Positions 4,224-34,727 of a stretch of 34,767 nucleotides of DNA are shown piece by piece; the first letter of the stretch is position 1, and every line of letters begins with the position of its first letter. The translations under genes were made by a program, and so were the position numbers. The DNA is from an uncultured beta proteobacterium (lineage in GTDB: Bacteria; Pseudomonadota; Gammaproteobacteria; Burkholderiales; Rhodocyclaceae): positions 1-34,767 of the forward strand of contig CAIXSK010000168.1 in the NCBI GenBank assembly GCA_903922075.1, given 5' to 3'. The notes under the pieces were generated by a model. That model was not told the origin of the DNA, ran no database searches, and saw nothing but the letters and a program-made list of their open reading frames with translations.

Positions 4224-6707
4224 TTACTCTGTCGGGTTCCTGCCGTGCAGGTAGGCGAAGGCGGCGGCGCCATTCAGGGGCTTGCTCATCAGGTAGCCCT
4301 GAACCTCGTCGCAGCCGTTGGTGCGCAACAGTTCAAGCTGGTCCTCGGTCTCGACCCCTTCGGCGATGACCCTCAGGCCGAGCGAGTGCGCCAGGGCGAT
4401 CGTGCCGAAGGCGATGGCGCGGTCGTTGAGATCGGTTTCGATATCGGCAACAAAGGAACGGTCGATCTTCAGGTGATCGATCGGAAAGAGCTTGAGATAG
4501 GCAAGCGAGGAATAGCCGGTGCCAAAGTCGTCGATGGCGAGCGTGACGCCCATGCGACCGAGGCGCTCAAGAATCTGGATGGCTTCCTGGGGGTTTTCCA
4601 TCACCGAACCTTCGGTGATTTCGAGTTCGAGCAAGTCAGCCGGCAGGCCCGAAACTGTCAGTGCATTGGCTACCGTTTCGCAGAAGTCGCGCCGACGCAG
4701 CTGGCGTGGCGAAACGTTGACGGCGATGCGCAGAGGCTTCAGGCCGGCATCGATCCAGCGTTTCATTTCGCGGCAGGCGGTTACGAGAACCCATTCGCCA
4801 ATTTCGACGATGATCCCTGTTTCTTCGGCAACCGGGATGAAACGGTCCGGGGCGATCATGCCTTCGGTCGGATGGTGCCAGCGGATGAGTGCTTCGACGC
4901 CGGTGGGTTCCATGTTGCCGGCGCGGAACTGGGGCTGGAAGCAAAGCGCGAGTTCATTGCGGGCAATGGCATGGCGCAATTTGTGTTCGATATTCAATCG
5001 CTCGGAGCTGATCCGGTTCATCTCGTCCGCGAAGAACTGAAAGTTGTTCCGGCCGGCAGCTTTGGCGTGATACATCGCCGTATCGGCGTTTTTCAGAATT
5101 GTGTCGCCGTCAGGGCCGTCATCGGGAAAAAGGCTGATGCCGATCGAAGGGCTGGTGTGCAATTCGTGGCCGTTGGCCTCGATGGACGACGAAAGGGCGG
5201 CGATTGCCTTGCCGGCAACTGCTGCGGCATCGGCTGCCGAAGCGATGCCGGGCAGGACAATGACGAACTCGTCGCCTCCCAGCCGTGCCACAAAATCCGT
5301 TTCGCGAACGACGCTGGACAGGCGGCAGGCGACTTCGCGCAACAGTTCGTCGCCTATCTGGTGACCGAGGGTGTCGTTGATGATCTTGAAACGGTCGAGG
5401 TCGAGGAACATCATGGCGATTTTCCAGCCGTGCCGGCGGGCCTCCGGTAGCAACTGGGCAAGCCGCATGAGCAGGGCCATCCTGTTCGGCAGACCGGTCA
5501 GGGCATCATGCTGGGCGATGTGCCGCATGCGCTCCTCGGACTGCTTGCGTTCCGTTATGTCGGCGAGAATCCAGATGTAATGGGCCGGCAGGCCGCTTTG
5601 CGGGTCATCGACCCGGTTGATGCGTGCCCCGGCAGGGAAGTCCTTGCCGTTCTTCTGGGTTACCTCGATTTCACCGTTCCAGGTGCCACGCAGGGAAATT
5701 TGCGCCTGAAGTGTTATTTCCGTTAGCCCATCATCTAGATTGATCAGCCCGAACACGGTTTGGCCGATCAGTTCAAACGGCTCGTGGCCGGTCATCTGGG
5801 TCGTGGCTGGGTTGATCGACAGGATGCGGTGTTCTTCGTCAGTAAAAATGATGCCGGCCGGGGTGTGGCTGTAGACTTTCTGTGCGAGTTGCTCACGCTC
5901 GGCACTGGTTCGGCGCTCGGTTATGTCGGTGTATATCGTGACAAAACCACCTTCGGCCAGCGGCACACCGCGGATTTCCAGCGTCTTTCCGTTCGGTCGG
6001 GAGCGCTCGAACCGGTGCGCAGTCAGGTGTCGGGAACGCTCCATCAGGGCCGCGACAATCTGCTCCGGATCTCCCGGACCATATTCACCCCGCTGTGCGT
6101 TGTAGCGAAAAAGCGTTTCCAGCGACACGCCAGGCTTCACGATGTCAGCAGGAAGATCCAGAAGGCGGGGAAATTCTGCGTTGAAGAGGGCAAGATTGGC
6201 GTTGCTGTCGAACAGGCTGACGGCACTTGGAATGCTTTCGATAACCGTCTGCAACTGACAGTGCTGCATGCGCAGCGCGGTTTCTGCGGCCTTGCGATCG
6301 GTGATGTCGGTGTAGGTTGTGATGAAACCAACCAGTTTTTCATCGATGTACAGGGGTTCACCCTGAACCAGATGGGTTTTCCCGTTCGGCCGGGTGCGCT
6401 CGAAGCAGTGAGCTTCAAATTTGTTGGCCAGCGCCGTGATGCGCGAAACGTGATCCTCGCTGTCGCCGGGGCCGTATTCGCCACGATTGGCCGGGATGCG
6501 GATCAGTTCGGAAAAATGTACACCTTCAAAAACGGCTTCTGGTGGCAAATTCAATACGTCAATGAACCCCTGGTTCCAGACGCGCAAGCGCAACTGCTCG
6601 TCAAAGACGCTGATGCCCTGGGGCATGTTCGTAACCACTGCCTGCAGATAGGCTAACTGGCGACCGATGTCGCCCGGTGGTAGTGAGGATGCGTCGGATG
6701 AAGTCAA
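4224..6707 (-). CDS. PAS-PAS-PAS-GGDEF-EAL signalling protein
   Basis: 827 aa; repeated PAS/PAC blocks, RLGGDEFVIVLPG, EALIRWHHP, DDFGTGYSSLAYL. Confidence 0.95.
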   Translation of the reverse strand: MTSSDASSLPPGDIGRQLAYLQAVVTNMPQGISVFDEQLRLRVWNQGFIDVLNLPPEAVFEGVHFSELIRIPANRGEYGPGDSEDHVSRITALANKFEAHCFERTRPNGKTHLVQGEPLYIDEKLVGFITTYTDITDRKAAETALRMQHCQLQTVIESIPSAVSLFDSNANLALFNAEFPRLLDLPADIVKPGVSLETLFRYNAQRGEYGPGDPEQIVAALMERSRHLTAHRFERSRPNGKTLEIRGVPLAEGGFVTIYTDITERRTSAEREQLAQKVYSHTPAGIIFTDEEHRILSINPATTQMTGHEPFELIGQTVFGLINLDDGLTEITLQAQISLRGTWNGEIEVTQKNGKDFPAGARINRVDDPQSGLPAHYIWILADITERKQSEERMRHIAQHDALTGLPNRMALLMRLAQLLPEARRHGWKIAMMFLDLDRFKIINDTLGHQIGDELLREVACRLSSVVRETDFVARLGGDEFVIVLPGIASAADAAAVAGKAIAALSSSIEANGHELHTSPSIGISLFPDDGPDGDTILKNADTAMYHAKAAGRNNFQFFADEMNRISSERLNIEHKLRHAIARNELALCFQPQFRAGNMEPTGVEALIRWHHPTEGMIAPDRFIPVAEETGIIVEIGEWVLVTACREMKRWIDAGLKPLRIAVNVSPRQLRRRDFCETVANALTVSGLPADLLELEITEGSVMENPQEAIQILERLGRMGVTLAIDDFGTGYSSLAYLKLFPIDHLKIDRSFVADIETDLNDRAIAFGTIALAHSLGLRVIAEGVETEDQLELLRTNGCDEVQGYLMSKPLNGAAAFAYLHGRNPTE

Positions 6708-33531: not shown

Positions 33532-33915
33532 TCAGTCGCGCTGGATCAATTCGATTTTGTAGCCATCCGGATCTTCGACGAAGGCGATGATGGTCTTGCC
33601 GTGCTTCATCGGGCCGGCTTCGCGCACCACCTTGCCGCCACGTTCCTTGATCGCGGCGCAGGCAGCGGCAGCGTCCGGCACGGCCAGCGCGACGTGGCCG
33701 AAGCCGTTGCCGAGGTCGTAGGCCGGGGTGTCCCAGTTGTGCGTCAGTTCGAGCACCGCCTCCCTGTCTTCATCGCCGTAGCCGACGAAGGCCAGCGTAA
33801 AGCGGCCTTCCGGGTAGTCCTTGCGGCGGATCAGCTGCATGCCGAGGATTTCGGTGTAGAAGGCGATCGACTGGTCGAGATCGCCGACGCGGAGCATGGT
33901 GTGCAGGATGCGCAT
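33532..33915 (-). CDS. gloA: lactoylglutathione lyase (glyoxalase I)
   Basis: [47 protein letters not shown]. Confidence 0.96.
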
Positions 33916-34020
33916 GGGTTTTAGTCGGTAGTGGTTAGTCGGTAGATGTTAGCGAAGTTTGGGGGCGCCAGGGCGCCCATGGTTTTGCTAGCGACTAATG
34001 ACTAATAGCTAGCAGCTAGC
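33916..34020. repeat. inverted heptad-TAG element around a GC hairpin
   Basis: TAG at 33922/33929/33936/33943/33950; hairpin GGGCGC-cagg-GCGCCC (33963-33978); CTA at 33988/33995/34002/34009/34016. Confidence 0.85.
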
Positions 34021-34727
34021 ACTTGCTTTCCCAGTTGGCGCAATTCCAGCCGCCGTGCTTTCCAGTCCGGGCAAAGCGTCTCCACCACAGACCAGAAGCG
34101 CGGGCTGTGGTTCATTTCCTTGAGGTGGGCCAGTTCGTGGCAGACGACGTAATCGACGACCGGCAGCGGCATCAGGACCAGGCGCCAGTTCAGCGCAATG
34201 CCGCCGCGGTGGCTGCAACTGCCCCAGCGCGTGCGGGCCGAGGACAGGCGGAGCGGCGGCACCGGGACGCCGAGGCGGGGGGCATGAAGGGCCAGGCGTT
34301 CGGCGAAGACGGCGCGGGCCTTGTCGCGCAGGGCGGCTTCGAGTAGCGGGTTGGCGTCAGCGCCGGGCGTGACGCGCAGGTAAAGCCGGCCCGGGCCGAA
34401 CTGCCAGCGGGCGCGACCGATGGTCGTAAATGCTACGGTCAGTGCCTCGCCGAGGGCAAAAATGACGGTGCCGTCAGTGATTTCCAGCTTATTGGTAGCG
34501 GGGCGGTCGCGCCAGGCGGCCAGTTTGTCGAGCACCCACTGGCCATGCTGATGGATCAGGGTCTCGATGTCGCCGATGCGGGCGCGGGTCGGTGCGCCGA
34601 GACGCAGGCCGCGATGGTCGATGGAGAGGCCGATGGTCCGTCGCTGGCTGCGCCGCAGCTCGTAGGCTACCGCCTGGCCGGCGATGACGATACGGCGGGC
34701 CGGTTCAGGTGGCGTTGTGCGAGGCAT
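34002..34727 (-). CDS. YgjP/SprT-like metal-dependent hydrolase
   Basis: WRLVLMPLPVVDYVVCHELAHLKEMNHSPRFWSVVETLCPDWKARR (HExxH). Confidence 0.93.
   Translation of the reverse strand: MPRTTPPEPARRIVIAGQAVAYELRRSQRRTIGLSIDHRGLRLGAPTRARIGDIETLIHQHGQWVLDKLAAWRDRPATNKLEITDGTVIFALGEALTVAFTTIGRARWQFGPGRLYLRVTPGADANPLLEAALRDKARAVFAERLALHAPRLGVPVPPLRLSSARTRWGSCSHRGGIALNWRLVLMPLPVVDYVVCHELAHLKEMNHSPRFWSVVETLCPDWKARRLELRQLGKQVLAASY
34428..34463 (+). repeat. TGCTACGGTC element, copy 4 (inside YgjP-like CDS, antisense to it)
   Basis: AAATGCTACGGTCAgtgcctcgccgagggcAAAAAtg; shares 17-mer GTAAATGCTACGGTCAG with copy 3. Confidence 0.8.

Follow-up and report, generated by a model that had tools for sequence, protein, structure and literature searches.

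The window, a contig of 34,767 nt from an uncultured beta proteobacterium of the Rhodocyclaceae, carries an inverted array of TAG triplets in the gap between a YgjP-like metallopeptidase gene and gloA. On each arm, five TAGs stand exactly 7 nt apart around a GC hairpin, as the first-pass annotation had described; its coordinates for the arms and the core were all reproduced, as were the use of an array TAG as the stop codon of the YgjP-like gene and the position of the left arm directly upstream of the gloA start (Table 1). The array is far beyond chance: a run of three phased TAGs is matched six times in the window, whereas shuffled sequence gives 0.01 such matches. The element also folds better than its own shuffles (z of -4.35 on the plus strand and -2.48 on the minus strand). 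No covariance model of Rfam 15 matched the window at its gathering score, and no Shine-Dalgarno-like sequence precedes the gloA start.

Table 1. Features of the TAG-heptad element and its flanking genes (positions in the window).
Feature	Position	Strand	Details
gloA (glyoxalase)	33532..33915	-	PF00903; start 6 nt from the left array
Left arm, five TAGs at 7-nt spacing	33922..33952	+	TAG starts 33922, 33929, 33936, 33943, 33950; spacers TCGG, TGGT, TCGG, ATGT
GC hairpin core GGGCGC-CAGG-GCGCCC	33963..33978	unassigned
Right arm, five minus-strand TAGs (CTA on plus) at 7-nt spacing	33988..34018	-	CTA starts 33988, 33995, 34002, 34009, 34016; spacers CTGC, CTAT, TCAT, TCGC
Array TAG serving as stop codon of the YgjP-like gene	34002..34004	-
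YgjP-like metallopeptidase gene	34002..34727	-	PF01863 (E 6e-52)

The same genome contains a whole family of such elements. The pattern TAGN4TAGN4TAGN4TAG gives 81 matches genome-wide, against 1 for the reversed control pattern, and these merge into about 33 elements of approximately 100 bases, most of which have two facing arms with TAG every seven bases. None of the approximately 33 lies inside a gene, and most fill the whole gap from a stop codon to the next start, bearing out the earlier suggestion of a dispersed, phased, inverted family in intergenic DNA. The flanking genes are codirectional at 22 elements, convergent at 9 and divergent at 2, the low last figure being no significant departure from the local background. 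The predicted association with gene 3' ends was also found: the stop codon is TAG at 22 of 33 genes near elements but at 10 of 88 elsewhere, and is often supplied by the array. Shine-Dalgarno sequences accompany 4 of 17 starts beside elements versus 42 of 84 elsewhere (p 0.06), which is suggestive only of their loss. At one locus (L043 985-1010), the final heptad before the start codon reads CTAGGAG, and the Shine-Dalgarno sequence may there be part of the array. Genome data were used in the form of pattern searches and sequence stretches around the elements, several genomes being drafts, and genes were called with a simple codon-usage finder written for this analysis.

The unit follows a TAGTYRY-like consensus, with T at the fourth base in 91% of units (in the statistics for relatives, this T was built into the search pattern), mostly C or T at the fifth, G or A at the sixth and C or T at the seventh. 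Runs of three or more G, of the kind able to form G-quadruplexes, are absent from the common TAGTYRY units. The middle between the arms is variable, at 0-51 nt, and contains a GC hairpin in some copies. Arm length, in turn, has a sharp upper edge: 58 arms have five TAGs, 34 have four and only 10 have more than five, five of these being long tandem expansions. Ascertainment by the TAG pattern biases the unit statistics of relatives and not this upper edge.

The elements have a hairpin energy of -29 kcal/mol compared with -13 for shuffled letters. The two arms of a copy are nevertheless not matched to one another. Arm-to-arm covariation was absent at every register from -2 to +2 units, spacer identity between partner arms was 0.509 versus 0.546 for permuted arms, and arm-swapped hybrids folded no worse than the native elements and, if anything, slightly better. 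Because partner-specific complementarity is absent and swapped arms fold as well, there is no sign of selection on the base-paired stem as such; the fixed ladder and the pyrimidine/purine pattern suffice to make it. Perfect repeats and perfect palindromes may be mildly avoided.

Many elements lie between the same pair of genes in at least two species, with flanking DNA that is about 80–93% identical. The array of the window is neither unique in its genome nor unpreserved, having orthologous copies in related species. At five orthologous sites picked independently of the TAG pattern, the TAG columns are kept at 0.87 (T), 0.90 (A) and 0.97 (G) and the T that follows at 0.875, whereas the other spacer positions are kept at 0.55, 0.75 and 0.68. 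The value for the TAG guanine is not a mere effect of base composition, since the sixth position, which is also mostly G, is kept at 0.75. Among 150 changed TAG triplets in orthologues, 50 read TGG, 46 CAG and 28 GAG, and only 6 read TAA, the sole stops left. Judged from these alignments, the TAG phase and scaffold are conserved while the spacers drift, and the spacing itself seems to matter. At many sites the element is inherited vertically.

Comparison of relatives also revealed turnover at fixed sites. At the ygjP-gloA site, the element is present in genomes G073 and G082, and several relatives carry only a TAAGGAAAAAGC-type spacer with a Shine-Dalgarno sequence. At a second site, between genes that we take to be fis and purH (names based on translated ends in the sequence), some relatives have the short empty spacer TAAATCACC, many have TAG arrays, and others have facing arrays of AGGATCG or GGGATTG heptads whose strongest periodicity is mostly at lag 7 or 14. 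Two orthologous sites show empty spacers or inverted AGGATCG arrays in other species, with GGGATTG at one of them. Filled, empty and dialect states are interleaved on the tree of the flanking genes, which is well supported only in part. The sister dialect came to light through the reversed control pattern, whose 63 matches in genome G011 are that genome's own AGGATCA heptads in long tandem arrays; in this dialect, AGGATCG/GATCCAG heptads stand at orthologous slots in other species (L235 in G011, L338-L350 and L362).

Three rRNA operons of the complete genome G073 carry an inverted TAG-heptad element in the spacer that separates tRNA-Ile from tRNA-Ala (L263 1371-1455, L272 and L273; part of one copy is masked). 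In most relatives, the spacer in this gap is short or of unrelated sequence. Several others have a different palindromic insert of approximately 80 nt there (L304-L309).

Four-unit TAGTNNN matches were found in 21 of 77 genomes of the window's genus, six of which have 31–63 matches each. Across 250 genomes of the order, a stricter pattern matched only in the genus itself and in one simple tandem array, and across 299 genomes of the phylum there was, besides the own genome, a single simple tandem match. The matches listed from the collection scan include TTAGTYR-type arrays, mostly perfect tandems, in cyanobacteria, Bacteroidota and others. Two observations come from outside the genus. A Gallionellaceae genome has a degenerate facing TAGTYRY pair with its own small hairpin core (L107, ~6050-6200), and genome G058, from another family of the order, has facing arrays of GGGGCTA/GGGACTA-type heptads, similar in architecture and built of a G-rich heptad (L062, ~1430-1560).

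The first-pass annotation had proposed that the element combines a phased three-frame stop with a terminator, with arrays that halt stray translation arriving from either side and a hairpin that halts transcription. The arithmetic behind this proposal holds, as a 7-nt period puts a TAG stop in every reading frame of both strands, and the stop of a flanking gene is often an array TAG (22 of 33). However, only 6 of the 150 changed TAGs remain stops in orthologues, and the third-base G is the most conserved even though a change from G to A would keep the stop. Constraint on stop codons predicts the opposite substitution spectrum, and a stop function is thereby contradicted; copies between tRNA genes in rRNA operons and dialects at the same sites that are not based on stop codons argue against it as well. 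On the side of termination, four core-bearing copies between convergent genes have the GC hairpin followed by TGTTTTTGC on one strand, a hairpin with a T-tract that could terminate one flanking gene. The core is, however, present in only 5 of about 33 copies in the own genome. For the copy in the window, the plus strand holds the T-tract and the minus strand both genes, so that the tract is antisense to both; with the T-tract off the coding strand, this copy does not fit an intrinsic terminator. The combined function is highly improbable.

Of the two origins suggested for the array, slippage and mobility, each stands in part. If the arrays were ordinary heptamer microsatellites, produced by replication slippage and decayed by mutation, seven would be an unsurprising period, as the long repeat units of many bacterial genomes are most often of this length (Mrazek, reviewed in PMC4679880). 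Real tandem expansions do occur: in three species, one TAG array has grown into long near-perfect tandems (L270 1300-1560, L289 1400-1560 and L262 860-1050; the genomes with genuine expansions are G062, G073 and G095). Yet no slippage signature was detected within arms, where adjacent units are 0.523 identical versus 0.534 for randomly dealt units. Arm length ends sharply at five units, decay has spared the TAG, and the inverted pairing is left unexplained. Slippage acts on single copies and accounts for only a few long arrays, and as the origin of the family it is improbable. A somewhat better case can be made for a selfish, MITE- or REP-like palindrome with no host function that inserts at stop codons and short gaps, the TAG scaffold being what a transposase recognizes. 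It would account for the empty and filled states of the same site, interleaved on the gene tree, and for the apparent substitution of the stop codon and leader upon insertion, in which the Shine-Dalgarno sequence is often lost (the depletion at p 0.06). The core hairpin, with its flanks, is common across the genus and shared by paralogous copies; in the window copy, it appears with flanks GCGAAGTTTG / TTTTGCTAGC as a flipped version of the genus-wide core (TTAGCAAAAACAGAGGGCGCC..GGCGCCC.CAAACTTCGCTAACA). There is, however, no single conserved palindromic sequence across copies, only the GC-core minority sharing sequence. The copies share a grammar, and near-identical recent copies were seen only in the rRNA operons. 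Comparisons of empty and filled sites show a few bases replaced and no clean target duplication. Decay after landing should be even, but orthologues keep the TAG and lose the spacers. The search for an autonomous transposase partner covered PF01797 (Y1_Tnp), the RAYT/IS200 family, which is absent from the element-rich genomes G096 and G082; as a driver it was rejected, showing no correlation with element richness. What remains of mobility is thus gain and loss at fixed sites, and a purely selfish palindrome is a minority reading. We rate only slightly lower, and still as unlikely, an array of binding sites, five per arm, for a putative DNA-binding protein acting in nucleoid organization or in a gyrase-like manner and not through RNA. 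Repeated protein contacts would give a conserved scaffold with free spacers and a fixed number of units, and would not require the arms to pair with each other. On the other hand, a 7-bp step does not match the 10.5-bp helical turn, placing successive sites on different faces, and the placement of the elements fits transcribed spacers equally well.

We consider it highly probable that these elements form a dispersed, intergenic family in which a variable middle is flanked by two facing arms, each of about five heptads. The observations behind this description are the dispersal, the fixed phase, the arms of about five units, the placement from stop to start, the turnover of sites and the replacement of one dialect by another. 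As read from the sequences, what stays constant is a purine-G step (TAG here, AG in the sister dialect) that recurs on the 5' arm at intervals of seven nucleotides, the 3' arm having its complement; within the pyrimidine/purine pattern, the intervening three to four bases are free. We tentatively hypothesize that the element works as a stem-loop whose 7-nt ladder is read by a putative host factor as a gene boundary, a proposal that we hold with less than even confidence. In transcripts, the TAG/CTA ladder would hold the element in an imperfect stem-loop; in DNA, the element might form cruciforms. The putative factor would read the ladder and use the element as a boundary between genes at the RNA or DNA level, perhaps with a role like that of REP elements in processing RNA or protecting 3' ends. 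If perfect repeats and palindromes are avoided, as they seem to be, the spacers would stay diverse. Anatomy and function taken together, this is the best explanation at hand, and we put its chances at about even. More speculative, and in our estimate rather unlikely, is its extension to a class present in several phyla, in which one G step per seven nucleotides and its complement, repeated about five times, would be the constant. The letters would be rewritable (TAG, AGGATC, GGGATT) while the phase stays, a conserved reader would count in sevens, and the G-quadruplex explanation given for Xanthomonas would be wrong.

Among known repeats, the inverted intergenic GGGAATC heptamers of Xanthomonas are anatomically the closest; TAACTGA repeats are also similar. 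In X. campestris and X. axonopodis, the GGGAATC repeats are 7 nt long, combine fixed with free positions and come mostly in sets of four, in intergenic DNA and near or overlapping a stop codon; there are 70–75 facing pairs per genome, 7–8% lie between divergent genes, and the gene context is kept between species while the sequence varies (PMC4692102). The elements described here share the period, the fixed and free positions, the intergenic location near or overlapping stops, the facing short arrays of about four units, the small number between divergent genes and the constancy of gene context across species despite sequence variation. They differ in that TAGTYRY is not G-rich, so that no G-quadruplex is expected, that most elements are facing pairs or their remnants, that some have a GC hairpin core, and that sister species can have different dialects at one and the same slot. 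TAACTGA repeats are intergenic direct repeats in marine Beggiatoaceae, cyanobacteria and Bacteroidetes (PMC4679880). They resemble our family in being 7-nt intergenic units that immediately precede start codons and are oriented like the right arm, and their reverse complement, CAG-TTAT, is one transition away from the TAG-TTAT unit. Unlike ours, they consist of identical units, are direct with almost no inverted sets, and belong to other lineages; tandem identical TAACTGA units were not found in the family described here.

The cyanobacterial STRR are likewise heptanucleotide intergenic arrays, and TTAGTCA/TTGGTCA-type arrays from cyanobacteria, some of them facing, are among the matches listed (L122). 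Those listed are mostly long near-perfect tandems, in contrast to the short, degenerate five-unit arms of the present family. REP, BIME and REPIN sequences are also short, dispersed intergenic palindromes at gene 3' ends and vertically stable at many sites. REP elements have one conserved sequence and usually a RAYT transposase, whereas the units here vary freely and no RAYT link was found.

Earlier reports of heptamers in Xanthomonas, Nostoc and Beggiatoaceae tied their explanations to one sequence, for example through G-quadruplexes, or to polymerase slippage. The TAG family has the same architecture with no expected quadruplexes and no slippage signature in ordinary copies, and its phase is conserved even though the spacers drift. 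What is constrained (facing arms, each of about five units, in steps of seven bases) is thereby separated from the letters, and the question of a reader becomes testable within one genus, where the same sites exist in filled, empty and rewritten form.
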